A stretch of DNA of 64,000 bases from Dysgonomonas sp. BGC7 (GTDB lineage Bacteria > Bacteroidota > Bacteroidia > Bacteroidales > Dysgonomonadaceae). A program made the translations under genes and the position numbers. This document shows positions 13,817 through 61,666 of this stretch, in pieces (position 1 is the first letter of the stretch; every line of letters starts with the position of its first letter). The stretch spans positions 62,001 to 126,000 of the forward strand of contig NZ_CVRP01000006.1 of NCBI RefSeq assembly GCF_001261735.1, in the 5' to 3' direction. Under the pieces are notes generated by a model. The model saw nothing but the letters and a program-made list of their open reading frames with translations. It was not told the DNA's origin and searched no databases.

Positions 13817-14017
13817 ATTTTAACTAAAACCTGACAAACTTGTACACTATCAAGCCCCTCTTCGTCTCCCCAAAGGGGGAGAAACTGCTGACGTAAAAAA
13901 TTTGTTCCTCCTATGCTAACTGTTAACTGATTACTGTTAACTGATCAATTTTCAACCCTCTTGGCTTTGCCTAAGCCTCCCTTTTGGGGAGGTTGGAGGG
14001 GCTTTATAGATAAAGTT
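13817..14017 (-). repeat. Dispersed ~200-bp intergenic repeat, copy 1
   Basis: Read on the minus strand, this stretch matches copies 2 (47,382) and 3 (61,454) nearly throughout: CTTTATCTATAAAGCCCCTC, a CCTCCC/GGGAGG-type hairpin, a conserved core with TTAACAGTAATCAGT and GCATAGGAGGAAC, a second CTCCCC/GGGGAG hairpin, GAGGGGCT, and a conserved tail GTCAGGTTTTAGTTAAAAT. AGCCCCTC and GAGGGGCT form inverted ends. No ORF of note. It fills most of the gap between thiL and the secreted-protein gene at 14086. Confidence 0.9.
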
Positions 14018-14028
14018 CTGTAAACCCA

Positions 14029-14065
14029 TAAAAAAAAGCCCTTATCAGTATTTGATAAGAGCTTT
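14029..14065 (-). terminator. Terminator of the secreted DUF3836-like gene
   Basis: On the minus strand AAAGCTCTTATCA pairs with TGATAAGGGCTTT and is followed by a T run; it lies 20 bases after the stop at 14086. Confidence 0.75.
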
Positions 14066-14085
14066 CAATATTGCAATGCTTTACA

Positions 14086-14526
14086 TTACTTCTGAGCCAT
14101 AAATTCACCATTATTGTCTATCTTGATATGTTTTACTACCAACAGGCCTCCCTGATTGTCATATACATGTATGAATTGTTCTATTTTCGAAGACCAGCTG
14201 CTCATATTATTATCCCACTCTGTATATGTCAAATAATCTACATTTCCGCTATTATTATACACATAGTCATATTTATTCACTGCTTCCCATCCGGTCTTAC
14301 TATCCCACACATATGAAACTTTCTTTTGCATATTTCCATTAGCATCGTAATGATAAACCGATTTGCTTATAGCTTTTGAAATAGCTTCATCGTAGGTAAT
14401 AAATTCTTTAACGCATCCTATCTCCGTTTTTTCTATATTGGAATAAACCTTCTGAGTATTTGCTGCTGATAAATTTACTATTGAAAAAAGTATTGTTGCT
14501 ACTGCTGATAAAATAATTGTTTTCAT
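14086..14526 (-). CDS. Secreted DUF3836-like protein
   Basis: A 146-residue protein with a clear signal peptide (MKTIILSAVATILFSIVNLS, cleavage near AANT). The mature part repeats short beta-strand units with Tyr, Asp and Asn: SVYHYDANGNMQKKVSYVWD, KYDYVYNNSGNVDYLTYTEW and QFIHVYDNQGGLLVVKHIKI. This resembles the DUF3836 family and the YD-type KYxYxYDxxGN units of Bacteroidetes secreted proteins. It is probably exported to the periplasm or surface; function unknown. It is a single gene with its own terminator, and repeat copy 1 lies just beyond it. Confidence 0.7.
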   Translation of the reverse strand: MKTIILSAVATILFSIVNLSAANTQKVYSNIEKTEIGCVKEFITYDEAISKAISKSVYHYDANGNMQKKVSYVWDSKTGWEAVNKYDYVYNNSGNVDYLTYTEWDNNMSSWSSKIEQFIHVYDNQGGLLVVKHIKIDNNGEFMAQK

Positions 14527-14616
14527 AACTTGTATTTTTTTATTGATTGTTGTTTATAATATTTTCAATTCTTATTTAAGCGCTTTCTGAAAATATGACG
14601 TTGCAATAATAAAAAT

Positions 14617-14659
14617 GGTTACAATATTTTGATTTATTTTTTTCAAAAATATTGTAACC
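14617..14659 (-). terminator. Terminator after the SGNH hydrolase gene
   Basis: GGTTACAATATTTT (14617-14630) pairs with AAAATATTGTAACC (14646-14659) around a T-rich loop, 33 bases after the stop at 14693. Confidence 0.7.
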
Positions 14660-14692
14660 AACTAAAATACAATTATATAATTTATAAAAAAA

Positions 14693-15382
14693 TTATTTTA
14701 TAACTTCATCTATTACTTTTTTCACCACTTTCTCCATCACTTTATAGCCTTCATCGTTAGGATGCACACCATCGTTTCCGTATGAGCCTATAAGAGCCAG
14801 ATTATCATCATGCATCACTGCATAATAGTCTACATAAGCAAAACCATTAGATGCTGCATACTCTTTTATACCTCCATTCAAAGACGCTATTTTGACTGGT
14901 ACATTTTTTATCTCTTTTCTCCAAGGATACTCCCCTACCGGTAACACTGACGAAAGAATTACTTTTATTCCGTTCGCCTTGGCAAGTTCTGCCATAGATT
15001 TTATATTGCCAAGAGTAAAATTTTCATCGTAAAGTCCCGTATTTTCAGCAATATCGTTTGTTCCTATATTGATAATTACAGCTACAGGCTTCAGATTAAT
15101 TACATCCTGACGAAAGCGTGACAACAACTGAGGACTGGTCTGCCCGCTTATTCCACGACCAACATAATTGTTAGATTTAAAAAAATCAGGACGTTTTCCG
15201 GCCCATCCTTCTGTAATAGAATTACCAATAAACACTACCCTTTTTTCCCCTTCCGCCGGAGCAGGTAATTCTGAATTCGCCTTTCCATACTTCTTCAGAT
15301 TGATTAATTCATTGAAACCCTGAGCACCTAAATAAAAACTAAAAACAGACATAAATAATGCTATAAACACAATTTTCTTCAT
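14693..15382 (-). CDS. Secreted SGNH/GDSL hydrolase (esterase or acetylhydrolase)
   Basis: From the ATG at 15382 the protein has 229 residues, including a signal peptide MKKIVFIALFMSVFSFYLGA; an upstream ATG at 15400 would spoil the signal, so 15382 is preferred. The SGNH blocks are present: FIGNSITEGW (catalytic Ser), GRGISGQTS (Gly), NIGTNDIAEN (Asn) and GNDGVHPNDEGY (Asp and His). It probably removes acyl groups from carbohydrates or lipids in the periplasm or outside. It lies directly downstream of an outer-membrane protein gene (two bases from the alternative start), so the two are one operon ending at a strong hairpin. Confidence 0.88.
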   Translation of the reverse strand: MKKIVFIALFMSVFSFYLGAQGFNELINLKKYGKANSELPAPAEGEKRVVFIGNSITEGWAGKRPDFFKSNNYVGRGISGQTSPQLLSRFRQDVINLKPVAVIINIGTNDIAENTGLYDENFTLGNIKSMAELAKANGIKVILSSVLPVGEYPWRKEIKNVPVKIASLNGGIKEYAASNGFAYVDYYAVMHDDNLALIGSYGNDGVHPNDEGYKVMEKVVKKVIDEVIK

Positions 15383-15401
15383 AATTATATAATTTTTCAA
15401 T

Positions 15402-16010
15402 TTAAAATCTGAATGTATAACCTATCGAATAAAACAGATTATCACCATAAGGTGAGTTCTTATTCTGAACAACATCATATTGTATCATAGCTATCATACC
15501 ACCAAGACGCACTCCCCCTCCTATAAGAAACGAAGGAACGAATTCATTTTCGCTATGCTTGTATCCGTCATTGTATTTTAGTATTTGCCACAAACGGCTT
15601 ATTTCGGGCTGAACTCCTATAACCAGATATTCTACAGGATAGAAACGGCCAAACAAATTGAAACTTAGATAACTGCCACTATAGTCGTAATCGTAAAAAT
15701 CTTCTTTAAAATAAGTATATCCCAATCCGGCTCCGGCAGTTAAATATTTAGAAAAATCATACCCCACCTGAGGCGATATGCCGACCAATGTATAATCTCC
15801 GAATTGCAGGCTAAGATTTCCTCCTATAGATAGCTTAGAAACATCGAATGAAGATGCCGACTTCTTCTGAGGTAAAGTCCTTTGAGAAGTATTTGTAGCG
15901 GTTGTTTTCCTCTGATCGTAAACATTACCATTTTTGTCTACATATATTTGAGAAAAAGAATTTAAGCAAATTCCCAAAAGCAATATAAGCAATATACTAT
16001 TTTTATTCAT
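15402..16010 (-). CDS. Outer-membrane beta-barrel protein
   Basis: A 202-residue protein with a signal peptide (MNKNSILLILLLGICLNSFS), a short Thr/Gln-rich linker starting YVDKNGNVYDQRKT, and then alternating aromatic strands: LSIGGNLSLQFGDYTLVGIS, YLTAGAGLGYTYFKED, YLSFNLFGRFYPVEYLVIGV, with the last residue Phe after SIGYTFR, as needed by the outer-membrane assembly machinery. It is likely an 8-strand barrel; no ligand can be inferred. It is the first gene of an operon with the SGNH hydrolase. Confidence 0.8.
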   Translation of the reverse strand: MNKNSILLILLLGICLNSFSQIYVDKNGNVYDQRKTTATNTSQRTLPQKKSASSFDVSKLSIGGNLSLQFGDYTLVGISPQVGYDFSKYLTAGAGLGYTYFKEDFYDYDYSGSYLSFNLFGRFYPVEYLVIGVQPEISRLWQILKYNDGYKHSENEFVPSFLIGGGVRLGGMIAMIQYDVVQNKNSPYGDNLFYSIGYTFRF

Positions 16011-16544
16011 CTATTATAATTTTTTAGAGACATACTCTCCTATTAAAGAGTTATCATCAATTATATTAATATTATATTTTTCTTTTTAATATTCAAAAAA
16101 ACTTATTGTGATCATAATTGGCTGTTAATACTGTTCATTCTTTTTATAGAAAATACTTGTATTATCTGTTATTAAAATCTTATCAGTAGATAAAACAAAG
16201 TTATTAAACGAATCAAAATTATACAATTTATTTATATAAAGCTTTTTATGAACTTTATTAAAACATTGTTAATAACTACGATTGTTTAAAACTATTTTTG
16301 AGGAAAATACTTTTTGTTGTTAATAGTGTCTTAATATATCATTTGATAATTAGTAGTGATTTTTAATTGTTAGTTGCGACTTATTTTATATATGGCAATG
16401 AGATTGATAAAACAATCATTTTTGTTTAATAAATATATCAACAGTTTTTAACAGGTTATCAACAGTGAGAATTTGGGCTATTAAATAACCTATTACCAGA
16501 TAAATATATTAATTTTGTTATTAGTTAAAATAAAAAACGATAAA
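16011..16544. other. Long AT-rich divergent intergenic region upstream of sppA
   Basis: 534 bases without a convincing gene. TGTTAATA occurs three times (16123-16130, 16267-16274, 16318-16325) and TATCAACAG twice (16436-16444 and 16457-16465), exactly 21 bases apart on the same strand, about 80-110 bases before sppA. These may be regulator sites; the region is so A+T-rich that chance repeats are expected for the shorter motif. Confidence 0.4.
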
Positions 16545-18311
16545 ATGAAAGATTTTTTTAAGAGTTTGTTAGCTTCCATTCTGGGATGTTTTATTGTTCT
16601 GGGATTGTTTTTTCTTATAATATTTGTCTCTATAGCAGCTATGTCTTTTAGTTCTTTAAGCTCTACAGATACGTATACATTGAAAGATAATACAGTATTA
16701 ACACTTAAGCTCGAAGGAGAGTTGTTGGATAGGGTAGAGGAAGAAAATCCTTTTCTGGCTCTTTTGGGACAAGCATCCGATTCGCAATTGGGATTGGACG
16801 ACATTCTGTTGTCTATAAAGAGAGCTAAAGAAAATGATAAAATAAAAGGTATTTATATAAATGCGGGGATGTTTCAGGCATCGAGTGCATCGCTTAAAGA
16901 AATAAGAGATCAGCTTTTGGATTTTAAAGAGAGCGGTAAATTTATAGTTGCATACGGTGATGTTTACACACAAGGATGTTATTATCTTTCTTCTTTAGCC
17001 GATAAAATTATTATGAACCCGCAAGGTAACCTCGATCTGCATGGTTATGCCGCTAATCCTATGTTTTATAAGGGGTTGCTCGAAAAGGTAGGTATAGAAG
17101 TACAGATATTTAAGGTAGGTACTTTCAAATCGGCTGTAGAACCTTTCATTCTCGACAAGATGAGTGATGCTAATAGGGAACAGGTATCTTCATATTTAGG
17201 TGATATGTGGTCTACTCTTACTTCTGATATTTCAGCTTCAAGAAATATTTCAGTCGAAAAATTGAATCAATTCACCGATTCGCTGGTTACATTCAAAAAA
17301 GCAGAGCAAACTATACAGTATGGTCTTACCGATACTTTGATGTACGAAACAGGAGTGAAGGAATATCTGAAAACATTGCTCAAAGTAGATGATGTAAAAG
17401 ATGTACGTCTGGCATCAATAAAAAATATATCTTCTGTTCCATCTCTTAAAGAGAGTAATTCGGGTGATGTTATAGCTGTTTTGTATGCAGAAGGAAGTAT
17501 TACCGATGGTTCAGGTAAAGATGGCATTACCAGCAAAAGATATATGAAAGAAATAGAGAAATTGAAAGATAATGATAAGGTAAAAGCTGTTGTTTTTCGT
17601 GTAAATTCTCCCGGAGGTAGTGCATATGCTTCCGAGCAGATATGGAAAGCCATTAGCGACCTGAAAGAGAAAAAACCTGTTGTAGTATCTATGGGAGACT
17701 ATGCTGCATCGGGCGGTTATTATATTTCCTGTAATGCGTCTAAGATAATAGCGCAACCTAATACTCTTACAGGATCGATAGGTATATTCGGTATGTTTCC
17801 TAATGCAGAGGGTCTTACTAAGAAGATAGGAGTATCGTTCGACGTTGTGAAAACAAATAAATATTCAGACTTTGGCGATCTCACCCGCCCTATGAGAGAA
17901 GATGAAAAAGTGATACTTCAAAATTATATAGAACGTGGATACGATTTGTTTCTTACCCGTTGTTCCGATGGTCGTGGCATTGCTAAAGATTCTTTAGATA
18001 ATATTGCACAAGGTCGTGTATGGACAGGAAAACAAGCTCTCGAAATAGGTTTGGTAGATGCTTTAGGTAGTATAGATACTGCAATAGAAGAAGCTGCTAA
18101 ATTGGCTAAACTGGAAGATTATTCTTTGAGTTCTTTTCCTAAAAAGACAGACTTTTTTGAAAGTTTCTTATCTAACCAGAAAGAAGAACTTACTACAAAA
18201 GCTATGAAAGAATATCTTGGTAGCGATTATCAGTTCTTTAAAACTTTGAAAGAAATAAAAGATCAGGATTTTGTACAGGCTCGTATGCCTTACGATGTAG
18301 TTGTAAGATAA
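16545..18311 (+). CDS. sppA: Signal peptide peptidase SppA, 67-kDa type
   Basis: From the ATG at 16545 the protein has 588 residues, in the range of the long two-domain SppA. One N-terminal membrane helix (about 8-36, GCFIVLGLFFLIIFVSIAAM) anchors it in the inner membrane. Two S49 domains follow (about 80-270 and 315-500). Expected catalytic residues are present: Lys195 in VGTFKSAVEPF of the first domain and Ser359 in VNSPGGSAYASEQ of the second, forming the Ser-Lys dyad. It degrades leftover signal peptides. The upstream in-frame start at 16515 is a TTG and is rejected. The gene is followed 3 bases later by lpxK. Confidence 0.95.
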   Translation: MKDFFKSLLASILGCFIVLGLFFLIIFVSIAAMSFSSLSSTDTYTLKDNTVLTLKLEGELLDRVEEENPFLALLGQASDSQLGLDDILLSIKRAKENDKIKGIYINAGMFQASSASLKEIRDQLLDFKESGKFIVAYGDVYTQGCYYLSSLADKIIMNPQGNLDLHGYAANPMFYKGLLEKVGIEVQIFKVGTFKSAVEPFILDKMSDANREQVSSYLGDMWSTLTSDISASRNISVEKLNQFTDSLVTFKKAEQTIQYGLTDTLMYETGVKEYLKTLLKVDDVKDVRLASIKNISSVPSLKESNSGDVIAVLYAEGSITDGSGKDGITSKRYMKEIEKLKDNDKVKAVVFRVNSPGGSAYASEQIWKAISDLKEKKPVVVSMGDYAASGGYYISCNASKIIAQPNTLTGSIGIFGMFPNAEGLTKKIGVSFDVVKTNKYSDFGDLTRPMREDEKVILQNYIERGYDLFLTRCSDGRGIAKDSLDNIAQGRVWTGKQALEIGLVDALGSIDTAIEEAAKLAKLEDYSLSSFPKKTDFFESFLSNQKEELTTKAMKEYLGSDYQFFKTLKEIKDQDFVQARMPYDVVVR

Positions 18312-18314
18312 TTT

Positions 18315-19415
18315 ATGATAAAAACGAAGCCTGTACATATCAATAAATGGTTACTTCCTTTTTCTTGGTTGTACGGGCTTGTTGTATATATACGTAACAA
18401 GTTTTTCGATTTAGGGATTTTAAAACATGAAGAGTTTGATGTTCCTGTAATCTGTATTGGTAATATTACGGTAGGAGGTACCGGAAAAACGCCGCATACC
18501 GAATATCTGATCAGTATTCTGCAAAAAAAATATAGGGTAGGGGTGCTCAGTAGAGGATATAAGAGAAAATCGTCAGGTTTTGTGCTTGCTACTTCACAGT
18601 CTACAAGTAACGATTTGGGAGACGAATCGTTGCAAATAAAACGTAAATTTCCGCAAACAATAGTTGCTGTGGATGGAAACAGAAGAAGAGGAATCAGGCG
18701 TATGCTGGCACTCGATGATGCTCCTGAAATCATATTGCTCGACGATGCCTTTCAGCATAGGTATGTAAAGCCATCTTACACAATTATTTTATCGGACTTT
18801 AATCGTCCTGTATACGAAGATAGCCTTTTGCCTGCCGGGCGTTTGCGTGAACCTGCTTCGGCTCTTAAAAATGCAAATATGATAGTAATTACCAAATGTA
18901 CGGATGATTTGCAACCCATCGACTTTAGGATAATATCGCATGATATAAATGCATTTCCTTATCAGGAATTGTATTTTACTACATTTGCTTATAAAGGGTT
19001 ATACCCTGTATTTGATGGTAGCGGCGATAAACTACCTTTAGATAGTCTCGAAGATAAACATGTTCTGTTGGTTACAGGTATAGCTTCTCCAAAGATGTTG
19101 ATAAAGAAACTATCTGAATATACGGATAGGATAGATACAATATCCTATCCCGATCATTATAGTTTCAAGAATAAGGATATAAAACATATTACTAACAAAT
19201 TCAATAATATACCGTCCGATAATAAAATCATTTTAGTTACAGAAAAAGATGCAACACGGCTACTTTTCCGAGAAGATATAAGCGATGATATAAAAAATAG
19301 TTTATATTATCTGCCTATCGAGGTTGCATTTATGGACAAAGAAGACAATTTTAAAGAAAAAATATATAAACATGTTAGAGAAAATTCAAGAAACCGCAAC
19401 ATTTATAAGAAATAA
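18315..19415 (+). CDS. lpxK: Tetraacyldisaccharide 4'-kinase (lipid A)
   Basis: The 366-residue protein phosphorylates the 4' position of the lipid A disaccharide at the inner membrane. The N-terminal helix WLLPFSWLYGLVVYIRNKFF is the membrane-binding segment. The Walker A loop is IGNITVGGTGKTPHTEYL (about 52-69), followed by VLSRGYKRKSSG, the Walker B-like region IILLDDAFQHRYV, LPAGRLREPASAL and the late GIASPKMLIKKL and TEKDATRLL, all standard for LpxK. It sits between sppA (3-base gap) and punA (44-base overlap), so the three are one operon. Confidence 0.95.
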   Translation: MIKTKPVHINKWLLPFSWLYGLVVYIRNKFFDLGILKHEEFDVPVICIGNITVGGTGKTPHTEYLISILQKKYRVGVLSRGYKRKSSGFVLATSQSTSNDLGDESLQIKRKFPQTIVAVDGNRRRGIRRMLALDDAPEIILLDDAFQHRYVKPSYTIILSDFNRPVYEDSLLPAGRLREPASALKNANMIVITKCTDDLQPIDFRIISHDINAFPYQELYFTTFAYKGLYPVFDGSGDKLPLDSLEDKHVLLVTGIASPKMLIKKLSEYTDRIDTISYPDHYSFKNKDIKHITNKFNNIPSDNKIILVTEKDATRLLFREDISDDIKNSLYYLPIEVAFMDKEDNFKEKIYKHVRENSRNRNIYKK

Positions 19416-20187
19416 AGTGAATGTGGTTCCTGATATTGCAATAATTCTTGGTACAGGACTTGGCGAATTGGTACACGAAATAAGCAGCAAAACAGAAATT
19501 CCTTACGAATCAATTCCTAATTTCCCGGTTTCTACAGTAGAAGGGCATAGTGGAAAACTTATTTTGGGAAAGCTCGGGGATAAGGATGTTATTGCTATGC
19601 AAGGCCGTTTCCACTATTACGAAGGATATATGATGCAGGAAGTTACATTTCCTATTCGTGTATTTCAGGCTTTGGGAATCAGTTATTTGTTTGTTTCTAA
19701 TGCAGCAGGAGGAATGAATGGTAGCTTCGATATAGGAGATATTATGCTTATCGACGATCATATCAATCTTTTCCCTGAGCATCCTCTGCGTGGCAAAAAT
19801 CATAAGGAGTTGGGAACTCGTTTTCCGGATATGAGCAATGCTTATGACAAGGAGCTTCGTATAATGGCAATGCAAATAGCTAAAGAAAGTAATATAAAAC
19901 TTCAGCACGGGGTATACGTAGGTACACAAGGACCTACTTTCGAAACGCCTGCCGAATACAATTGGTTTCGTATTATCGGGGGCGATGCTGTGGGTATGTC
20001 TACAGTTCCTGAAGTTATAGTAGCCAATCATGCCCGGATGAAGGTGCTGGCATTCTCTATAATCACCGATATAGGCATTATCGGCAAAATAGTAGAGGTG
20101 ACACACGAAGATGTCCAGGAAGCCGCCAAAATAGCTCAACCCAAAATGGCATATATTATGCAAGAGGTAATAAAACGAATATCTTAA
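19372..20187 (+). CDS. punA: Purine nucleoside phosphorylase
   Basis: From the ATG at 19372 the protein has 271 residues, normal for trimeric PNP; the frame is open further upstream but that part overlaps lpxK and is not family-like. Landmarks are AIILGTGLGELV (phosphate loop), PVSTVEGHSGKLI, MQGRFHYYEGY, VSNAAGGMNGSFDIGDIMLI, GVYVGTQGPTFETPAEY and GGDAVGMSTVPEVIVANH (purine site). It cleaves guanosine or inosine with phosphate for purine salvage in the cytoplasm. Its start lies inside the lpxK 3' end, so the two are translationally coupled. Confidence 0.93.
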   Translation: MLEKIQETATFIRNKVNVVPDIAIILGTGLGELVHEISSKTEIPYESIPNFPVSTVEGHSGKLILGKLGDKDVIAMQGRFHYYEGYMMQEVTFPIRVFQALGISYLFVSNAAGGMNGSFDIGDIMLIDDHINLFPEHPLRGKNHKELGTRFPDMSNAYDKELRIMAMQIAKESNIKLQHGVYVGTQGPTFETPAEYNWFRIIGGDAVGMSTVPEVIVANHARMKVLAFSIITDIGIIGKIVEVTHEDVQEAAKIAQPKMAYIMQEVIKRIS

Positions 20188-20207
20188 AGGGTAATATTTA
20201 TAAAGTA

Positions 20208-20242
20208 AAAAAGCACTGATATGTATTTTATCAGTGCTTTTT
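20208..20242. terminator. Bidirectional terminator between punA and the plug-domain gene
   Basis: AAAAAGCACTGATA pairs with TATCAGTGCTTTTT around a short loop, flanked by A and T tracts, between the convergent genes. Confidence 0.85.
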
Positions 20243-20260
20243 CTATTTTAAACGAGGGAA

Positions 20261-23078: not shown

Positions 23079-23085
23079 CATTGAG

Positions 23086-25477: not shown

Positions 25478-26995
25478 TTATTTTCTTTTGTATAGGTATA
25501 TTTCGCCATACGGGTCTTGCATTTCTGTATAAGTTGCTATCATCGTATAATTTTCATTCAAATAAGGAAAATTGGTACGTGATGTAACAATGAACATAGG
25601 GCCTGAATTTTTAACTATATTTTTTTGAAATTCAGATATATCCGGGAATACTGTGTTGTCTATGGCAGGGTGGAAAAAGTATTTATAAGAAGGAACTATG
25701 TCAGCTGCCATATATATTCCTTTATCTAATTGCAGATCGAGTAGGGTAGGGTTATGTTCTTTATTTATAATTTCTGCAAATTCTTTTTGACCATAGCTGC
25801 AATTCTCTTTGCAGAAGAGTGCAGATCGCTCGTTTGCCAGTAATCCCTGATTGTAGATATTGAGAGCCAGTATGCAGATAAATGAAAGTATGTAGATGGG
25901 ATAATGATTACTCTTTTTTTTCATCAAATATTTGTCTAAAAATCCGAAAATATATACCAGACCCATAATTGCAAATACATAAAGAACAATATATGCATAG
26001 AGATGGTGATCCCTGCTGTTTACAATAGGTAAATATAGAAAGACGAAAGAAAAGAATATCCCTATTTTATATTCCTTTTCTTTGATATATTTTTTTGTAA
26101 ATATTAGTACTGCCAGCCCCAATAAGACTAAAGGAAAGGCAATGTAAAACCGTGATGTAAGTTTTACAAAGCGTACTGCTATATTTAATACTACATCTAT
26201 AGTAATCCCTGTTGATGCGTACATGGAATTGAATGTAAAATAGGCAAAAATGAAATCTGCAAAAGCATTATTCAGCAGAAAATAGAGTAAAAAAGGGAAA
26301 GCTAATATTATAAATCCTACCATAAAATACATGAAACAAAACACAATCTGTTTGTACTTTTTTTCTGTGTATATTCGGTAACATATTGCTAGTATAAGGG
26401 GAGCCCAGAAAACACAAACGCTAAACTTCACAAAGAATGCAAATGCAAATGTGAATCCCTGTATCAGCATTATCTTATACAGCCCTTTTGGAGATTGATA
26501 ATTACCATTGAAATAGGAAAGAAAATAATAGAAACTAATAGTTATAATAGGCACAATAAACTCGTCGGCAGAGCCTCCTGATCCACTTTTGCTATACAGA
26601 ATAGTAGTATATAGCAGTGCTATGATAAAGGATGAGATATTGCTTAAGAATAATTTGGCAGTGCGGTATGCAAACAGTATGCTTAGAAACCAGAAGCAAG
26701 ATTGTATGAGATATATACCAAGGAGTGAAGTATTAGATACCAGATAGCCGATTCCATATATGAAATAGATGAGAGGTCCTTTATGGTCGAAGAGGTCCTT
26801 GTATGGTACTTTTCCATTGAAAATACCTTTTCCTATAGAGAAATATATTTGAGGATCGCACCATTCATTAAACAGGTAATATGGAGAATTTAATGTATTG
26901 AAGAAACAAACTATAAAAGAGAATAGTAGAAAGATAAAAATAAAATAGCTGTCTTTTTTTATAGATAAAGAATTATTTGTTAGGTTATTAACCAT
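25478..26995 (-). CDS. GT-C type membrane glycosyltransferase
   Basis: A 505-residue integral membrane protein with about 11-12 hydrophobic helices from residue 18 to about 375 and a soluble C-terminal tail of about 125 residues. The first extracytoplasmic loop carries NEWCDPQIYFSIGKGIFNGK then VPYKDLFDHKGPLIYF; the acidic residues and DHKGP motif are typical of ArnT/PMT-like GT-C enzymes that use lipid-linked sugars. Acceptor and sugar cannot be inferred. It is tightly linked to dtd (2-base gap). It and the next two genes upstream separate uvrC from dtd-mazG-deoC, an apparent insertion into an otherwise common cluster. Confidence 0.75.
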   Translation of the reverse strand: MVNNLTNNSLSIKKDSYFIFIFLLFSFIVCFFNTLNSPYYLFNEWCDPQIYFSIGKGIFNGKVPYKDLFDHKGPLIYFIYGIGYLVSNTSLLGIYLIQSCFWFLSILFAYRTAKLFLSNISSFIIALLYTTILYSKSGSGGSADEFIVPIITISFYYFLSYFNGNYQSPKGLYKIMLIQGFTFAFAFFVKFSVCVFWAPLILAICYRIYTEKKYKQIVFCFMYFMVGFIILAFPFLLYFLLNNAFADFIFAYFTFNSMYASTGITIDVVLNIAVRFVKLTSRFYIAFPLVLLGLAVLIFTKKYIKEKEYKIGIFFSFVFLYLPIVNSRDHHLYAYIVLYVFAIMGLVYIFGFLDKYLMKKKSNHYPIYILSFICILALNIYNQGLLANERSALFCKENCSYGQKEFAEIINKEHNPTLLDLQLDKGIYMAADIVPSYKYFFHPAIDNTVFPDISEFQKNIVKNSGPMFIVTSRTNFPYLNENYTMIATYTEMQDPYGEIYLYKRK

Positions 26996-47381: not shown

Positions 47382-47574
47382 AACTTTATCTATAAAGCCC
47401 CTCCAACCTCCCCGAAAGGGAGGCTTAGGCAAAGCCAAGAGGATTGAAAACTGATCAGTTAACAGTAATCAGTCAACAGTTAGCATAGGAGGAACAATTT
47501 TTTTGCGTCAGCAATTTCTCCCCGGAGGGGAGACTAAGAGGGGCTCGTACAAGTTTGTCAGGTTTTAGTTAAAA
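47382..47574 (+). repeat. Dispersed ~200-bp intergenic repeat, copy 2
   Basis: Same element as copies 1 and 3, here on the plus strand: AACTTTATCTATAAAGCCCC, a CCTCCC/GGGAGG hairpin, conserved core with TTAACAGTAATCAGTC and GCATAGGAGGAAC, a CTCCCC/GGGGAG hairpin, GAGGGGCT and the GTCAGGTTTTAGTTAAAAT tail. It occupies almost all of the gap between apgM and the unknown membrane-protein gene. Confidence 0.9.
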
Positions 47575-47614
47575 TTGTATTTAAATGCAGAGGAATAAGA
47601 GTTCATTCTAAATA

Positions 47615-49078
47615 ATGATTGATACCGAAGTAAAAGTACATGACAATTTTTCATTGGAATTTAAAATAGGTTTTATTACCAATGGGAGTGGGGCAGACAT
47701 CAACGAGTTTAAAATTAATACTTGGATGTTTGTTCCTAATAGTCTTGATATTAATCGCTTCACATATCAGAAACCTGATTTTTATAAGGATGTAAAAAAT
47801 AATATTCGCTTGATTACTCCTGTCTACTCTTTAGGCGAAATATTAAAAACAGGTCGGGGGCCTATTCCCCGTCTGCAAAAAGCGGTAGATGAATTAGCTG
47901 TTGATCCGGAAAATGCCGTAAAAACGGAAAGCTATGTGTATCAGGTAAAAATGCTTGTTTGTATTGTCAAGAGTGCCCTGCGTCGTCAGGTACAGGTTGT
48001 AACAAAAGCGACTTCTGACGAAGAAATTATCTCTGAAATAAAATCCTATATTGGCGATGTCAGAGAGATAGCATTGCAATACAGGGAAATATGGGAAGAA
48101 TTGGAGAACCCTGAAATTACGGTGCAACAGCGTGAATATTTTCTTTTCGGAGACAACTTTCTGGGAAATATTATCGAGCAGTATACTTTCCAAATAATCA
48201 AGTTTCTGAAAGGGAAACCTGTATTCGAAATTCTTAAACCTGAACTAAATAAGCTGTTGGAAGACGAAATAGCTCATCGTAAAAAACGAGGCTTTATGTT
48301 GCTCGAAAAAGAAGATGAGAAGCACAACAGTCTGGTGATAACTCAGCGGAATATTCTCAAGAAGTTTGTAGAAAGTGACCTCTTTCTTCAGACTTTGAAG
48401 AAGAAAGACGGTCTTTTAGCCCAGCAGTTCTATTATAGCATTGCTGCCGGTATAGCTATGATATTTGCTACTGTAATATCTTTTTTCGCCACTCAGCGCT
48501 TTGGTAATTTTACTACCGACCTTTTCATTATACTCGTCTTTAGCTATATGTTCAAAGACCGTATCAAAGATATGATGCGCTACTATTTTTCGTCGAAGCT
48601 CGGGAAAAAATATTATGATACGAAGCTTAAATTGAGTATCCGTAAGCAAGAGATTGGCTGGGTGAAAGAAGCATTCGACTACATCGAAGAAAATAAGCTG
48701 CCCGAAGAGGTTCGTAACCTGCGTGCTCGAAGCCCCCTTGTAGAAGCAGAGAATGAAGTGTATGACGAAAAAATTATTCTGTATCGTAAGTGGGTGAATC
48801 TGTCGAAAGAGGAGATAGAAAAGTATAAGGAATATCGCCTGTCGGGGATTAATGATATTACCCGCTTCAATCTGTTGAATTTTACTCAGAAGATGGACAA
48901 TCCGTATATTCCACTTTATCTGGCCGATGAAGAAAAAGGATTTGTTAGTATCGAAGGCAACAAAATGTACTCACTGTATTTTATCTTACAGTGTATATCT
49001 GACGAAACAGAATATTATAAAAAATACCGTATCCTGTTTAATCGCAATGGGATAAGTGATGTTACAGAGCTTGCTTAA
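47615..49078 (+). CDS. Unknown two-helix membrane protein
   Basis: I do not recognise this 487-residue protein. The first ~110 residues are beta-rich (KVHDNFSLEFKIGFITNGSG, INTWMFVPNSLDINRFT); residues about 110-265 are helical and charged. Two hydrophobic helices lie at about 270-292 (FYYSIAAGIAMIFATVISFF) and 300-315 (TTDLFIILVFSYMF), followed by a basic segment (KDRIKDMMRYYFSSKLGKKY). The C-terminal ~150 residues are again soluble. The layout suggests two large cytoplasmic lobes around a short membrane hairpin. It sits alone between repeat copy 2 and a convergent 39-residue peptide gene. Confidence 0.75.
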   Translation: MIDTEVKVHDNFSLEFKIGFITNGSGADINEFKINTWMFVPNSLDINRFTYQKPDFYKDVKNNIRLITPVYSLGEILKTGRGPIPRLQKAVDELAVDPENAVKTESYVYQVKMLVCIVKSALRRQVQVVTKATSDEEIISEIKSYIGDVREIALQYREIWEELENPEITVQQREYFLFGDNFLGNIIEQYTFQIIKFLKGKPVFEILKPELNKLLEDEIAHRKKRGFMLLEKEDEKHNSLVITQRNILKKFVESDLFLQTLKKKDGLLAQQFYYSIAAGIAMIFATVISFFATQRFGNFTTDLFIILVFSYMFKDRIKDMMRYYFSSKLGKKYYDTKLKLSIRKQEIGWVKEAFDYIEENKLPEEVRNLRARSPLVEAENEVYDEKIILYRKWVNLSKEEIEKYKEYRLSGINDITRFNLLNFTQKMDNPYIPLYLADEEKGFVSIEGNKMYSLYFILQCISDETEYYKKYRILFNRNGISDVTELA

Positions 49079-49194
49079 ATGAAAGTCATAGGCAAGTTTC
49101 TACGTCTTTCTTTCTTCTTTTTCTGAATATATGCGTATACGGCGACACTAGCTACAGCCGCTACTAAAGTTGCTGCTAATACTTTCTTTGTCAT
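49075..49194 (-). CDS. Small membrane peptide, 39 residues
   Basis: ATG at 49194 opens a 39-residue frame: MTKKVLAATLVAAVASVAVY is a single hydrophobic helix with a basic start, followed by AYIQKKKKERRRNLPMTFI. It ends with TAA at 49075-49077, overlapping the convergent unknown gene by 4 bases. The composition (one Ala/Val-rich helix plus a Lys/Arg cluster) is typical of YtxH-like or other small membrane proteins. The spacing between flanking genes leaves room for it, and a TATCTTTA-like box lies near 49229-49237. It is too short for a firm call. Confidence 0.5.
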   Translation of the reverse strand: MTKKVLAATLVAAVASVAVYAYIQKKKKERRRNLPMTFI

Positions 49195-49304
49195 ATTATT
49201 GTTAAGATTAAGTCAATTTATTTATAAGTAAAGATAGGAACAAAAAATTGAATTAGTATCTTTCGTTTGAGGGATTTTTCTATTTTATGAAAAGGAGGTT
49301 GTTG

Positions 49305-52496: not shown

Positions 52497-52505
52497 AAAC
52501 TACAC

Positions 52506-54246: not shown

Positions 54247-54307
54247 AACCTACGTTATATTTTTTACCTCTATTTTTGTGTTAACGTGAAGGAAAAAAGC
54301 CATTAAG

Positions 54308-55213: not shown

Positions 55214-55289
55214 TATCTTTTGTTCTGACTGAAAGAGAATGACCAAAGGCAATATTTAGCCTTTTAATTACTACGTATAAAGTTAGTGA

Positions 55290-55320
55290 AAAAAGAAGGG
55301 ATAACATTCGTTACCCCCTC
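55290..55320 (-). terminator. Terminator of valS
   Basis: AGGG and TAAC pair with GTTA and CCCCT around ATTC; on the minus strand it is followed by TTCTTTTTT. It lies just after the valS stop. Confidence 0.75.
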
Positions 55321-55327
55321 TGTTTCA

Positions 55328-57946
55328 TTATTGCTTATTCAGGTTAGTTATACTTTCCTTTATCGTCTTTATCTTGCTTTCCGCATCGGCCTGTTTCTTG
55401 CGTTCATTGTCCACTATTTCAGGTTTTGCATTGGCTACGAATTTTTCATTGCTGAGTTTATTTGCTACCGACTTGAGGAAGCCTTCGAGATAAACTAATT
55501 CTTCGTTCAGTTTCTTTAATTCGGCCTCTATGTCGATGTTGTTTCCCAATGGGATGGAAAATTCGGTAGTACCTACCAGGAATGAAGCTGCGGTAGGGTC
55601 TTTTTCTTTTACTATGTTGATAGCAGATAAGTTGCCCATCTTGGTAATTACACTGTTGTATCGTATGTTGTGTTCGCCTGCAACATCAAGAGCCAATTCC
55701 TCCTTGTTTGGTATGTTCTTTTGAAGTCGTATTGTGCGTATGCCCGCGATAATTTCTTTTGCCTTATCGAACGTTGCGAGCAAATCATTATCAATGGCTG
55801 TCTGTTTCGGTATTGATGAGGTCATAATGCTTTCCCCTTCACCTCTCTCTTTCAACGCTTGCCATAGCTCTTCTGTGATAAATGGCATAAACGGATGGAG
55901 CAAACGAAGCAAAGAATCGAAATACCCGAGAGTAGCCTCGTAGGTTCTTCTGTCTATCGGTTGCTGATAAGCCGGTTTTACCATTTCGAGATACCAAGAT
56001 GAAAACTCGTCCCAGAATAGCTTGTAAACAGCCATCAGGGCTTCAGAAAGACGATACTTTTCAAACAGGTCGTTTAGTTCGTTTATTGTTTTCGACAATG
56101 TGTTTTCGAACCATTCTATAGCTGTTTTTGCAGCTTCGGGTTGTTCTATGCTATCGCTAACTTCCCATCCTTTTACAAGGCGGAAAGCATTCCATATTTT
56201 ATTGTTGAAATTACGTCCCTGTTCGCACAGTCCTTCATCGAAGGGCAGGTCGTTTCCGGCAGGGGCGGTAAGGAGCAATCCCATACGGACTCCATCGGCA
56301 CCGTATTTCTCCATCAATTCGATAGGATCGGGCGAGTTACCTAATTGTTTCGACATCTTACGTCCCAGCTTGTCGCGCACAATTCCTGTGAAATATACAT
56401 TTTCGAAACAGGCTTTTCCTCTGTATTCATATCCCGACATAATCATGCGGGCTACCCAGAAGAAAATGATATCCGGCCCTGTTACAAGATCGTTTGTAGG
56501 ATAGTAGTAATTTATTTCTTTATTGTCAGGGTTGTTGATGCCATCAAATACGGATATTGGCCACAACCATGATGAGAACCACGTGTCGAGGCAGTCTTCG
56601 TCTTGACGTAGATCAGCCATCGTCAGATTTGGATTCGTCTTCTGAGCTTTTTCCAAAGCTTTTTCATCTGTTTCGGCAATAACAAATCCTCCTTCGGGGA
56701 GGTAATATGCTGGTATTCGATGTCCCCACCACAACTGACGGCTGATGTTCCAATCCTTGATGTTCTCCATCCAGTGACGGTATGTATTCTTGAATTTTGC
56801 AGGATGGAATTTAATCGTATCATTTTCTACTGCATCAAGTGCAGGTTTTGCCAGATCTTCCATTTTCAGGAACCATTGCATAGATAGTTTCGGCTCGATA
56901 GGAACATTTGTACGTTCCGAAAAACCTACACTATTTGTATATGCTTCTACTTTCTCGAGCAGGTCTGAGGCTTCCAGATCTTTTTCTATCTGCTTGCGCA
57001 CATCGAATCTGTCTATACCTTCGTATTGCAGGGCATGGGCGTTAAGAGTACCATCATCGTTTAGTATGTCGATGCTCTCAAGATTATATTTTTCTCCCAA
57101 CATGTAGTCGTTCACATCGTGGGCAGGAGTTACTTTCAGGAATCCTGTACCAAACTCCACATCTACATATTCGTCTTCTATAATAGGTACTATACGGTTA
57201 GCAATAGGTACAATAACCTTTTTGCCCTTCATATGGGCTGTTTTTGGATCGTTCGGGTTGATACATACAGCAACGTCTCCGAATATTGTTTCGGGACGGG
57301 TTGTAGCTACTACAATGTATCCATCTTCTCCCTCTACTTTATATCGTACATAATATAGTTTGCCATTTACTTCCTTGTGTATTACTTCTTCGTCCGACAC
57401 TGCTGTTTTTGCAGCAGGATCCCAGTTTACCATACGGATGCCCCGGTAGATGAGCCCTTTTTCGTAGAGGTCGACAAATACTTTGAGTACACTTTCGGAA
57501 CGCTTTTCGTCCATTGTAAAGCAAGTTCGTTCCCAGTCGCATGATGCACCCAGTTTTTTCAACTGTTCGAGTATAATACCTCCGTGCTTGTGTGTCCAAT
57601 CCCATGCGTGCTTTAGGAATTCGTCACGGCTCAGGTCGGTCTTCTTTATTCCTTCCGTGGCAAGCTTAGCAACTACCTTTGCCTCCGTGGCAATAGACGC
57701 ATGGTCTGTACCCGGTACCCAGCAGGCATTTTTGCCCATCATGCGTGCACGCCGCACAAGTATATCTTGTATGGTATTGTTCAGCATGTGCCCCATATGT
57801 AATACTCCGGTGACGTTGGGTGGAGGAATAACAATCGTATAAGGTTCGCGACTATCCGGCTCGGAATGGAATAATTTATTTTCCAGCCAATATTTATACC
57901 ATTTGTCCTCTACTTCGGCAGGGTTGTATTTACTTGCAATTTCCAT
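55328..57946 (-). CDS. valS: Valyl-tRNA synthetase
   Basis: From the ATG at 57946 the protein has 872 residues. The class I HIGH motif is [20 protein letters not shown], followed by [16 protein letters not shown]. The CP1 editing domain lies at about 200-330 ([36 protein letters not shown]). [20 protein letters not shown] holds the KMSKS motif, then the anticodon-binding helices and a C-terminal coiled-coil arm ([36 protein letters not shown]). Length and motifs are complete. TATTTTTG on the minus strand (57977-57984) is a possible -7 box, 31 bases upstream. Confidence 0.97.
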
Positions 57947-57976
57947 ATTAATAGTTGAATAACTTTTTAGAGGGAA

Positions 57977-57984
57977 CAAAAATA
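57977..57984 (-). promoter_or_regulatory. -7 element for valS
   Basis: Minus-strand TATTTTTG, 31 bases before the valS start at 57946; no clear -33 element. Confidence 0.45.
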
Positions 57985-58015
57985 CGAAATAGTTTCTTAT
58001 TTATTAGTATAGATA

Positions 58016-58057
58016 AAAAAGGAGTTGTCTTTTTTACTATTAAGACACCTCCCTTTT
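58016..58057 (-). terminator. Terminator of the sigma/anti-sigma operon
   Basis: GGAG and TGTCTT pair with AAGACA and CTCC (one mismatch) around a T-rich loop, followed by T on the minus strand; 28 bases after the stop of the last operon gene. Confidence 0.75.
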
Positions 58058-58084
58058 AAACAGTTATTTATTATCCGAAAGATT

Positions 58085-58780
58085 TTATTTTCTTATACTT
58101 CCTCCTCCTGATTTTTTTGAGTTGAGGTTATCACATCTAAATTCTTTGATATCCACATCCGATCCTCCACTGGCGATAATATCGGCAGACTTGGCTTTTC
58201 CTTTCAGTTCTACGTCTGATCCTCCGCTTACTGCTATTTTCACATAATCGGCATCTGCAATATTTATATCAGTATCGCTGCCTCCCGACGCTGCAAGATT
58301 AAGATTTTTTACCTGAAGATTTTTGATATCGCAATCTGCACCTCCCGAGAGGGCTATTTTACAGTCTTCTGCAGCTAACCTGCCTATTTCTATATCTGCA
58401 CCTCCCAATGCTGCTATAGAGAAGTCTCCCTTATTGGTTACTTGCGTTGCTTTAAAGTCTGCACCGGAAGATATAGCAACTGCATTGAGGTTGGGGGCTG
58501 ACACATATGCATTTATTTTTACATTGTTATTTCTTCTCATTTTGGTGTTTCTTCCCAGATTGAGGGATTTGTCAGTTACGCTTACTGCTATCTCTTTCAT
58601 GGTTTCGGCATCGGTTTCTATTTCTACCGAGTACGAACTGCCTTGAGTAAAATATACATTTATTCCTGCATTAGCGTTTATCTTCTCGAAATTAGCAGCT
58701 TGCCTTTTTTCCTTAATCACTTGAGCAGATATGCCAAATGATATAGAACAGCAAATGAGTAAAAGGGTGATAGTTTTCAT
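58085..58780 (-). CDS. Secreted head-GIN/DUF2807 repeat protein
   Basis: The 231-residue protein has a signal peptide (MKTITLLLICCSISFGISAQ). The mature part starts with the GIN motif region (ANFEKINANAGINVYFTQGS) and continues as a right-handed beta-helix made of short units whose turns repeat SGGAD/SGGSD every ~19-22 residues: AISSGADFKA, AALGGADIEI, ALSGGADCDI, AASGGSDTDI, AVSGGSDVEL, IASGGSDVDI. The Asp-rich turns could bind calcium. It is probably secreted or at the cell surface. It is the last gene of the ECF sigma operon, 26 bases after the preceding gene. Confidence 0.88.
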   Translation of the reverse strand: MKTITLLLICCSISFGISAQVIKEKRQAANFEKINANAGINVYFTQGSSYSVEIETDAETMKEIAVSVTDKSLNLGRNTKMRRNNNVKINAYVSAPNLNAVAISSGADFKATQVTNKGDFSIAALGGADIEIGRLAAEDCKIALSGGADCDIKNLQVKNLNLAASGGSDTDINIADADYVKIAVSGGSDVELKGKAKSADIIASGGSDVDIKEFRCDNLNSKKSGGGSIRK

Positions 58781-58806
58781 AATGTAATTTTTAATTTATT
58801 AGAGTG

Positions 58807-60036
58807 TTATCTTATAACGATATCTGCATAGGCGTTAGACACTTCTATTTTTGCAGTAGGAGTTCCGGAGCCAATAATACCTTTTTTTGTAATCCGGCCT
58901 ATCGCTTCTGAAGATTGAATATGCTTTACCGGATATTTCTTCGATATGCTGATGTCACCGTAAGTGAATGCTGCATCAAATTCTACAGTGAGCGTGGAAG
59001 GTAGAGATATGGCAACATCTGCATAACTGCCTTTTATTTTTATCGCTTTCAGCTTCGGCGAAACTGATTTTACAGTAAGGTCGCCGTAGGTTGTTGTTGC
59101 TGTCAGATTCGATATAAGATTGTCGATGACAATATTTGTATATTTGAGATTGATATCTATATTTGTTGCTGTTCCTACCTTTAGGTCTCCGTATGAAGAT
59201 TGATTGCTTTTTGTTATTATTTCGTTTGCTTCTCCAATTTTATAGTTAGAGTAGTTTCCCCAAAACTCTATCTTTTTTGCCTTGGTTATGCTTACATCAG
59301 AATACGATCCTGTTATATCAACATTCTGTATTTCTCCTATTTTTACATCGCTATATCTTAACTTTAATTGTACTTTGTCACTATTCAGGCTTTGTGCATT
59401 CAGGTTACTGTACGACAAGTCTGCTGTAAAAGGTCCTTGATATTTGTCCAGTTTAATATTGCCATATTTAAGATCAATATCTAATCCTATGTTTCGCGGA
59501 ATACTTATAATGTAATTGATCTTTGCTCCTCGGTTTCCACTACTTGTACCGTTGGTACTAATAGATAGAAGCTTGTTTGTAGTAGATACATTACATGATC
59601 CTTTCATGACTCTCGAGTCGAAATATTGTATTTCCAGATCTATCTGATTCGATGTAGCTTCCCGTATGATAATGTCCCCGTATTTGTGAAAAAACTCTAT
59701 TTCGGATATATTGGTAAATGTTTTCTTTTCTATCCTTGTCGGAGTTTTGTCATCCGTTTTTTCAGAGAAGCTGAAATTAAAGATCTTCGTTCCGTTCCTC
59801 TTTTGCATATCCAATACGAGGTCATTGCTGCTGGAGTTGAAGGCCATAATCATCGAAGAATCAAACTCGGGGATGTCTATCTTCAGATCTTTCAGGCTTT
59901 CGAAAACTTCTTCCATATCCGGTAAGCCTGGTTTCTTTTCACGTTGAGGTATCGAGTCTGAAGAAAGAGATGCAAATATCAGACTCGGAAGCATAGCCAG
60001 AACAAATAAACAGGCCGTTGATATATACTTTTTCAT
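58807..60036 (-). CDS. Secreted beta-helix-like repeat protein (DUF4097-like)
   Basis: From the ATG at 60036 the protein has 409 residues with a signal peptide (MKKYISTACLFVLAMLPSLI). An alternative ATG at 60054 overlaps the anti-sigma gene. The mature chain is low in cysteine and built of repeating strands with the pattern YGDIxI / YSDVxI / YADIVI (KYGNIKLDKYQGPF, RYSDVKIGEIQNVD, SYSDVSITKAKKIE, TYGDLTVKSVSP, AYADIVIR at the end), as in DUF4097-type putative adhesins. It is predicted to be extracytoplasmic. It follows the anti-sigma gene by 11 bases. Confidence 0.75.
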   Translation of the reverse strand: MKKYISTACLFVLAMLPSLIFASLSSDSIPQREKKPGLPDMEEVFESLKDLKIDIPEFDSSMIMAFNSSSNDLVLDMQKRNGTKIFNFSFSEKTDDKTPTRIEKKTFTNISEIEFFHKYGDIIIREATSNQIDLEIQYFDSRVMKGSCNVSTTNKLLSISTNGTSSGNRGAKINYIISIPRNIGLDIDLKYGNIKLDKYQGPFTADLSYSNLNAQSLNSDKVQLKLRYSDVKIGEIQNVDITGSYSDVSITKAKKIEFWGNYSNYKIGEANEIITKSNQSSYGDLKVGTATNIDINLKYTNIVIDNLISNLTATTTYGDLTVKSVSPKLKAIKIKGSYADVAISLPSTLTVEFDAAFTYGDISISKKYPVKHIQSSEAIGRITKKGIIGSGTPTAKIEVSNAYADIVIR

Positions 60037-60047
60037 ATTTTGAGTTT

Positions 60048-60584
60048 TTAGCATTTTGTATGTTTACCTAATTTTTCATTTATATTTTCCAGTGCTTCTA
60101 TGTTTGCTTTATAATGCTTTACAAGATAGCGCATGGCTATTTCTTTATTATCGTTGTTTTCCATTTCGCTCACAAATTTAGAATTATTATCTACTATCTT
60201 CTGTAAGTCGGCAGTTAGCTGCGCCTGATTTTCGCTGTCTGTATTTGCCAGCTTACACATAATATCGGCAATTTGCTCTTTCATTTGTTCATTGTAGTAA
60301 TCGTTTGTGGCCTGAAATTCGTCTATAGTAATGCTGTTTTCTATTGGTTTTTCACTTCCCATATATGGCATATAGAATTTCGATGAAACGAATACCAGAA
60401 TGGCGATGGAAGCCGCAACAGATATTATGGCAATAAGATTTTTTCTTATTGTGCGTTTCTTCACAGGAGTTTCGCCCTGTTTGTTCAATAGAGCTTCGAA
60501 TCGTGCGCTATGTCCTTCCTGTGGATTTTCGTCGTCAAATATGGCTCTGTTGTCTTCTATATATTTTTTCCTGTCTTTTTCCAT
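60048..60584 (-). CDS. Anti-sigma factor-like membrane protein
   Basis: A 178-residue protein with an acidic cytoplasmic N terminus (EDNRAIFDDENPQEGHSARF, EALLNKQGE), one membrane helix at about 47-68 (NLIAIISVAASIAILVFVSS) and a helical, Lys/Asn/Glu-rich periplasmic part (about 75-178). Its place 6 bases after the ECF sigma gene and the single-helix topology make it the likely partner anti-sigma, although the N terminus is not a classic zinc anti-sigma motif. Its stop overlaps an upstream alternative start of the next gene. Confidence 0.75.
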   Translation of the reverse strand: MEKDRKKYIEDNRAIFDDENPQEGHSARFEALLNKQGETPVKKRTIRKNLIAIISVAASIAILVFVSSKFYMPYMGSEKPIENSITIDEFQATNDYYNEQMKEQIADIMCKLANTDSENQAQLTADLQKIVDNNSKFVSEMENNDNKEIAMRYLVKHYKANIEALENINEKLGKHTKC

Positions 60585-60590
60585 ATTCTC

Positions 60591-61121
60591 TCAAATAAGT
60601 TCTATCAATTTTTGCTTCGCTCTCATGTATTGTACCCGGATTGTGCCGGGAGCTGTTTGCAGTATTTCAGCTATTTCGTCATGGTCGTATCCTTCCATGA
60701 GGTATAAGCTCAATATAATTCTGCTGGTTTCAGGTAACTTTTTTATTGCTGCTTTTACTTGTTCTACTTTGTTTATTATATACTCCCATTCGTCACTATC
60801 ATTTTCTTCGGCAGTATCGAAGTGGATATTTTCGTTCAGATTTATAACATCCAGATCCTTTTTCCTCAATTTGTCGATAGAGGTATTGATCGCAATGCGT
60901 ACCAACCAAGCTTCGAAAGGGGTAGCTTCGTCATATTCGTTGAGTTTCGAAAATACTTTCAGAAAGCTTTCCTGCATAGAGTCTTCCGCTTCGGACGAAT
61001 TTTGCAGCACCCGATAGCAGGCATTGTACACTCTCTTGGAGAAAGTATTGTACAATTGCATCTGCGCTCTGCGTTCGCCTCTTCTGCATTGTTCTATTAT
61101 GCCGTAATCGAAACTAATCAT
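60591..61121 (-). CDS. ECF RNA polymerase sigma factor
   Basis: The 176-residue protein has sigma region 2 (about 8-75: EQCRRGERRAQMQLYNTFSK, RVYNACYRVLQNSSEAEDSM then QESFLKVFSKLNEY) and region 4 (about 120-172: AIKKLPETSRIILSLYLMEG, YDHDEIAEILQTAPGTIRVQ, YMRAKQKLIELI with the helix-turn-helix). It directs transcription of stress or envelope genes, probably including its own operon. It starts the operon sigma, anti-sigma, two secreted repeat proteins. A repeated GGTTACCC lies at 61129 and 61263 upstream. Confidence 0.93.
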   Translation of the reverse strand: MISFDYGIIEQCRRGERRAQMQLYNTFSKRVYNACYRVLQNSSEAEDSMQESFLKVFSKLNEYDEATPFEAWLVRIAINTSIDKLRKKDLDVINLNENIHFDTAEENDSDEWEYIINKVEQVKAAIKKLPETSRIILSLYLMEGYDHDEIAEILQTAPGTIRVQYMRAKQKLIELI

Positions 61122-61453
61122 CTATCTTGGTTACCCTTTCATTATATATGTACGGACGAAAAAAATGATTGTTACAAAAGAATGAATATTTTTTGTAAAT
61201 TTTTCCGGTTTTTAAATAATCAATAAGAATTACCGATATGTTTTTGTCGGCGTAACCCTTGTGGTTACCCTCAATTATAGAGCAGGTACAAGCCCTGCCC
61301 TTATAGATAAAAATATGGCTATAAATTATAAATAAAATTTCTTGTCTTGTTTAAATCTTGTTTTGTCTTGTCTTATTATATAGTATAGGTGAGCGTATCA
61401 CTAACTGTATCTTATAAGATACGCTTGATGATACTTTTCGTGAAATTTCCGAA
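61122..61453. other. Upstream region of the ECF sigma operon
   Basis: No gene. It contains GGTTACCCT at 61129-61137, just before the sigma ATG, and again at 61263-61271 as part of an inverted repeat GTAACC-CTTGT-GGTTAC (61252-61268). These may be autoregulation elements, but no -35/-10 spacing is established. Confidence 0.4.
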
Positions 61454-61666
61454 GGTTTATCTATAAGGAAAAGCCTCTCAAGCCCCTCCCACCTCCCCTG
61501 GGGAGGCTTAAGCGAAGCCAAGAGGGTTGAAAACTGATCAGTTAACAGTAATCAGTCAACAGTTAGCATAGGAGGAACGAATTTTCTGCGTCAGCAGTTT
61601 CTCCCCCTTTGGGGAGATGAAGAGGGGCTTGAAAAATGTACAACTTTGTCAGGTTTTACTTAAAAT
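61454..61666 (+). repeat. Dispersed ~200-bp intergenic repeat, copy 3
   Basis: Same element as copies 1 and 2, plus strand, with about 16-18 extra bases near its left end (after GGTTTATCTATAA): then AGCCCCTC, an ACCTCCCC/GGGGAGG hairpin, the conserved core, a CTCCCC/GGGGAG hairpin, GAGGGGCT, and a tail reading GTCAGGTTTTACTTAAAAT (one change). It lies between the sigma operon and the DUF4831 gene. Confidence 0.9.

Follow-up and report, generated by a model that had tools for sequence, protein, structure and literature searches.

A multi-copy module with asymmetric ends and a TerS-like gene in Dysgonomonas: candidate binding sites upstream of genes

Three intergenic copies of a repeat of about 200 bp lie in a 64,000-nucleotide stretch of the genome of Dysgonomonas sp. 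BGC7 (contig NZ_CVRP01000006.1, positions 62,001 to 126,000), hereafter the window. We propose that they are non-coding members of a family of mobile modules, longer forms of which carry a gene resembling that of the phage small terminase (TerS), and that they have been retained as predicted binding sites beside promoters; in our judgement the case for this proposal and the case against it are about evenly balanced. The ends of the element are asymmetric, with a left end (LE), TTTATCTATA, and a right end (RE), GTACAA[C/G]TTTGTCAnnTTTTAGTTAAAAT. Throughout, G000 denotes the source genome, other G numbers denote other genomes and L numbers denote fetched loci. When 3 or fewer mismatches are allowed, the RE pattern occurs at 113 places in G000 and its reversed control at 0, as anticipated by the original prediction of a large genome-wide family, and the copies are neither confined to three nor inconsistent in their ends. 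The 80 stretches fetched from G000 contain, together with the window, 93-94 of these 113 REs. A BLASTN search of G000 with the repeat returned 65 matches, counting pieces; of 127 first-look candidates, 40 were scored. The repeat is modular: its pieces recur separately in G000, the most repeated one being the final 22 bases, TTTGTCAGGTTTTAGTTAAAAT.

The module consists of LE, a spacer that is A-rich near RE (LE to RE mostly about 70-107 bp) and RE, in which GTnAC/GTACAA-TTT blocks are followed by TTTTAGTTAAAAT. Of 94 REs, 59 have an LE no more than 120 bp upstream; extending the distance to 330 bp raises this number to 83, and extending it to 800 bp raises it to 88. At these three distances a reversed LE yields 5, 10 and 18 cases and the reverse complement of LE 3, 12 and 24 (no more than two mismatches in 11 bases were tolerated, and one LE may serve several REs in tandem arrays). 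Such arrays, every unit closing in RE, are seen at L012, L013 and L059, and mosaic units also occur. When 59 short members from G000 and G004 were aligned, only LE, two A-tracts and GTGTACAA[C/G]TTTGTCAnnTTTTAGTTAAAAT were conserved, and these members contain neither the hairpins nor the core of the window copies. Conservation along the whole length, stems and loops alike, had been read from the three copies; family-wide it lies in LE and RE. The two clear A-tracts stand at about -22 and -12 from RE. Curvature by phased A-tracts was considered and discarded, as the spectral peak lies at 12-13 bp (and 9 bp) and not at 10.5.

The sequences AGCCCCTC and GAGGGGCT, formerly taken for inverted termini, are the borders of an inner insert in the spacer that resembles repetitive extragenic palindromic (REP) sequences, since short members lack it and, in other genomes, similar AGCCCC...GGGGCT repeats are found free of LE and RE. 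One REP-like repeat of this kind, without LE/RE, lies at about 1500-1595 of L173 (G015, a genome of the same genus with no match to the TerS-like gene). Terminal inverted repeats, which mark a miniature inverted-repeat transposable element (MITE), were not found in the element, LE and RE being unlike each other. A palindromic repeat with inverted ends GCGAATCAGTAGTTGA...TCAACTACTGATTCGC encloses a subset of elements, e.g. L030, L057, L067 and L081 of G000. As a candidate for the true element end it was rejected and is regarded as a side feature, because it accompanies this subset only, with 13 of the 22 matches listed lying at fetched elements. Outer inverted repeats (14-mer, up to 4 mismatches at each end) are present at 10 of 88 LE-RE pairs in G000 versus 43 of 3560 random places.

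Six longer copies in G000 each hold one gene of 174-189 amino acids between the ends. In four of them LE comes directly before the start and the gene stops six bases before RE; the remaining two likewise have variants of LE and RE. The encoded protein has an N-terminal helix-turn-helix (HTH) domain (Pfam HTH_Tnp_1, E 2.5e-6, above cut-off), and its residues 1-177 of 187 match positions 135-309 of 319 of the profile phrog_309 (phage small terminase, Sf6-like; E 4.4e-14). Judged by this profile match over most of its length, it is a putative member of the TerS family. The match to Pfam Sf6_terminase was under cut-off, the TerS of a Porphyromonas phage (two phage records, one host strain) is 39% identical over residues 1-89, and a PDB sequence search with the protein gave nothing meaningful. 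A partner transposase with the same ends had been suggested as a check; the gene that lies between the ends encodes instead this TerS-like, presumably DNA-binding protein. No transposase was seen between the ends in the 88 LE-RE pairs of the fetched G000 stretches, four of which hold the TerS-like gene; genome-wide, only Y1 was searched for, and the profile Y1_Tnp/RAYT (PF01797; RAYT, REP-associated tyrosine transposase) had 0 matches in G000 and matches in 5 of 14 control genomes. Other open reading frames (ORFs) between the ends of these pairs do not exceed 36 amino acids, except for one of 80 amino acids, antisense, in L074, a wide and doubtful pair.

Matches to the TerS-like gene, counting fragments, occur in 20 of the 25 genus genomes, with 0-19 per genome. 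Among 38 distinct copies read outside G000, an LE-like end and a loosely RE-like end are both present in 27, just one of the two is present in 9, and both are missing in 2; the strict TTTTAGTTAAAA occurs in 8 of the 38. The gene with its ends is also carried by L107, a record labelled just Dysgonamonadaceae. Four loci (L100, L101, L109, L118) are labelled Prevotella; the labels look wrong, and three correspond to genomes grouped with Dysgonomonas. A weak 24-residue match to the protein in Lentzea (L120) was taken as chance.

With one mismatch allowed, RE is found in 16 of the 25 genus genomes, at 1 to 116 places each (G018 116, G000 107, G012 100, G010 49, G004 42), and, in an order-wide sample of 295 genomes, in G000 only, with 0 of the 294 others matching (293 outside the genus, 1 of the same genus). 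Among the genomes searched, the family is seen only in Dysgonomonas and close kin. The free dinucleotide of RE differs between species: GG in 63 of 86 cases in G000, in 0 of 20 in G004 (GT 9, CC 5, CT 4) and in 0 of 26 in G010 (CC 15, CT 8).

The elements are placed before genes and oriented towards them. Gene calls came from a simple ORF script, and 3 of the 86 element groups of G000 have no neighbour. The other 83 lie in 50 tandem co-directed, 3 tandem opposed, 29 divergent and 1 convergent context, and the RE-side gene is directed away from RE in 79 of 83 cases in G000, 17 of 20 in G004 and 24 of 29 in a set mainly from G010. Only the tandem contexts, 50 sense versus 3 antisense (p 6e-12), test orientation freely, because divergent and convergent regions are identical when read both ways and are therefore uninformative in this respect. 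The 20 loci taken from the 42 sites of G004 comprise 9 sense, 2 antisense, 8 divergent and 1 convergent; 30 further loci (25 from G010, 4 from G012, 1 from G018; one unclassed) comprise 15 sense, 2 antisense, 9 divergent and 3 convergent. The Bacteroidetes promoter consensus is given as TTTG/TAnnTTTG in PMC7366714 (see also PMC9723704). In G000, a near -7 box stands 18 bp past TTTG in 12 of 94 cases, versus about 1.2 expected per offset. A standard promoter at the RE junction was rejected as a general feature, the signal being partial; it cannot be general because at several loci of the G004 and G010 sets RE ends just 4-20 bp before the called ATG.

Of the 20 G004 loci fetched, six have syntenic counterparts in G000 that also bear an element, and a seventh was added later. 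In the six pairs the 31 bases of RE are identical at 169 of 186 positions (91%), a value biased upward by the choice of pairs with a recognisable RE on both sides. Flanks of the shared pairs align at about 69-81%, and three sites are common to G010, G004 and G000. The interiors are barely above background, with ranks of 12, 16, 25, 29, 5, 50 and 13 of 84. Sequence directly after RE ranks first in L302/L070, L327/L294 and L325/L293, which favours descent over parallel insertion there; the remaining pairs have little similarity there or none. The 17 settled G004 loci divide into 7 that are occupied in G000, 10 without a trace and 0 that are half decayed. In nine G000 orthologues the 330 bp before the gene (about 270 bp for L350) contain no RE that scores better than shuffled sequence, and L309 is empty in G000 too; L295 and L296, not queried, and L298, without a match, stand outside the settled set. 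Occupancy is thus all-or-none, since shared sites have intact ends and other sites have no half-decayed RE, and only this absence of half-decayed sites speaks to the upward bias of the 91%.

Evidence for mobility comes from the gene-bearing copies. Copies of the TerS-like gene are 96-98% identical and their flanks are unrelated, and therefore we consider the unit mobile. In G012, where gene copies are 93-95% identical, the common sequence ends sharply at ...TTAGTTAAAAT. At the orthologous locus L324/L295, G010 has a coding form (LE-RE 586 bp) and G004 a short form (86 bp). One clean empty site was read among the nine G019 sites compared with G005: positions 723-1662 of L214 (G019; 940 bp, TerS-like gene, TAA-like flanks) are absent from the orthologous L245 of G005. 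Among the other sites, L213 and L212 look occupied in both genomes, L217 retains an LE and no more, L207 carries about 380 bp of different sequence, L215 and L210 could be matched on a single side, and L211 and L218 were uninformative. All four coding sites of G002 and G020 are common to both, leaving no empty site.

Against this background, the window copies were read at 13,817-14,015 (-), 47,384-47,575 (+) and 61,455-61,666 (+). The original prediction of three intergenic copies without an ORF was correct: they were found again with pairwise identities of 93.8, 91.9 and 91.0% (ungapped columns), and their longest ATG ORFs have 5, 5 and 16 amino acids. Their parts are as follows.

14005..14014 (-): copy 1, LE TTTATCTATA
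13853..14003 (-): copy 1, REP-like insert AGCCCCTC...GAGGGGCT with two GC-rich hairpins and the TTAACAGTAATCAGT / GCATAGGAGGAAC core
13817..13845 (-): copy 1, RE, GTACAAG followed by TTTGTCAGGTTTTAGTTAAAAT, 79 bp before the start of ORF 12709-13737 (-), Pfam AIRS domain
47385..47394 (+): copy 2, LE TTTATCTATA
47396..47545 (+): copy 2, REP-like insert AGCCCCTC...GAGGGGCT
47547..47575 (+): copy 2, RE, 39 bp before ORF 47615-49078 (+)
61456..61465 (+): copy 3, LE TTTATCTATA
61481..61629 (+): copy 3, REP-like insert AGCCCCTC...GAGGGGCT
61638..61666 (+): copy 3, RE, one base off, TTTTACTTAAAAT, 99 bp before ORF 61766-62845 (+), DUF4831

The genes downstream of the copies thus encode an AIRS-domain protein, a protein without a Pfam match (copy 2) and a DUF4831 protein, and the genes flanking copy 2 sit apart from each other in the relatives listed. 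The RE pattern matches the window 4 times, three of these being the copies, versus 0.27 expected; the fourth, at 49187-49208 (+) after ORF 47615-49078, has 3 mismatches and is possibly a remnant or chance. There are 6 matches of TTTATCTATA versus 0.8 expected, and those at 26960-26969, 58008-58017 and 61302-61311 (-) stand alone, without a paired RE.

How could such a family have arisen? We hypothesize that an ancestral LE-gene-RE unit multiplied by means of an enzyme acting in trans, that internal deletions with loss of the gene produced the short forms, and that REP-like repeats entered some spacers later, including those of the window copies. The TerS-like protein, or a relative, would bind RE and LE, and retained copies would now function, where they stand, as binding sites located at the promoter of the downstream gene or immediately upstream of it. 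The ends would then persist while the spacer drifts because the copies serve as binding sites. Intact ends, drifting spacers, orientation before genes and the lineage-wide shift of the free bases together point to a DNA-binding protein on RE and LE, most simply the TerS-like protein. Several observations weigh against this proposal. Genomes of the genus hold anywhere from 0 to 116 copies, a spread hardly expected of a needed regulatory site, and, even with loose scoring, 11 of the 38 coding copies outside G000 miss one or both ends. The scarcity of convergent contexts (1 of 83) comes without a computed background of intergenic types and hence without an exact test, and the promoter idea is thin, with near -7 boxes in just 12 of 94 cases. 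Beyond the biased choice of the six pairs, parallel insertion into a favoured place could account for the shared sites, whose interiors rank only 5th-50th of 84. Finally, no empty site with a duplicated target came to light for a plain LE-RE element; the sole clean empty site is that of a 940-bp composite with additional outer inverted repeats GTAACTGTTTA.

Some of the same observations would suit a purely selfish MITE family, with one-way insertion targeted upstream of genes (or purging of other insertions), no host role and shared sites produced by repeated insertion at preferred spots. Such a family would accommodate the spread in copy number, the 10 of 17 settled G004 sites that are empty in G000, the tandem arrays and mosaic units, the gene-bearing forms with the same ends and the near-background interiors at shared sites. 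It fits less well with an RE that is 91% identical at shared sites, even in a biased set, with the bases shared just after RE in three pairs, with the lack of half-decayed REs and with a dinucleotide shifted species-wide. We regard this explanation as possible, and less probable than retention as binding sites. If, on the other hand, LE and RE were merely the sites of a host regulator with a large regulon, a non-mobile bipartite operator, then orientation and position before genes, as well as conserved ends around a drifting spacer, would be expected; duplicated gene-bearing copies with sharp sequence borders, tandem arrays, presence or absence at orthologous loci and 0-116 copies within one genus would not, and this explanation is already disfavoured and appears unlikely.

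The resemblance to TerS also brings to mind pac-like sites, at which the TerS-like protein would bind LE/RE and the large terminase of a helper phage would package from there, the family being a minimal phage satellite. The phrog_309 match over residues 1-177, the identity to the Porphyromonas phage TerS and the two positioned A-tracts beside RE are in line with this idea, but it leaves the position before genes unexplained, and we consider it very improbable. Even less probable is a structured RNA or processing site. Hairpins are visible in the window copies; however, RNAalifold predicted no shared structure for the 59 short members (energy 0; mean z -0.9 versus mononucleotide shuffles), and an Rfam scan of the window at gathering scores gave three tRNAs only and none at the repeat copies. 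From the original description as a MITE- or REP-like mobile or RNA-level element, the small MITE-like part can thus be kept and the RNA-level part dropped.

Comparison with known systems helps to place the family. It is MITE-like in being short, non-coding, multi-copy and intergenic. The closest analogy would be with the Correia elements, MITEs of Neisseria. According to PMC10969869, these also comprise more than 100 short elements, which stand predominantly directly upstream of genes, some with promoters or a site for integration host factor (IHF). Correia elements have terminal inverted repeats, whereas the Dysgonomonas family has asymmetric ends and longer members encoding a TerS-like protein; by analogy, it may work most like Correia elements without terminal inverted repeats and with an added coding form that has no transposase. 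The inner AGCCCCTC...GAGGGGCT insert resembles REP sequences and bacterial interspersed mosaic elements (BIMEs) associated with RAYTs in being palindromic, intergenic and part of mosaics. Nevertheless, LE and RE are not REP hairpins, and a REP/RAYT system was rejected as the identity of the family, as G000 has no PF01797 match. Integron gene cassettes stand in tandem, every unit closing in a recombination-like site common to all, and the units of L012, L013 and L059 that end in RE recall them; the Dysgonomonas sites differ in being short and scattered over the genome. The Sf6-like phage TerS shares the N-terminal HTH and the profile match with the encoded protein, but the Dysgonomonas gene is multi-copy and flanked by fixed ends, with no other gene between them. 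Among the papers listed by our literature searches, subscription papers being mostly outside their coverage, we saw none on this family.

In summary, this multi-copy mobile unit has a relative of a phage packaging protein as its single gene, and one must ask which enzyme moves it. It is tempting, although tentative, to propose a class of mobile element with one TerS-like gene, fixed asymmetric ends and no recombinase of its own, of which about a hundred modules stand before host genes, protein and sites co-evolving in each species as a genome-wide regulatory network. To our knowledge, the spreading of binding sites into regulatory networks by transposons is well argued for eukaryotes and has rarely been shown in bacteria. 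Here, a single genus combines the site, a candidate protein, orientation, retention across species and species-specific drift of the site.

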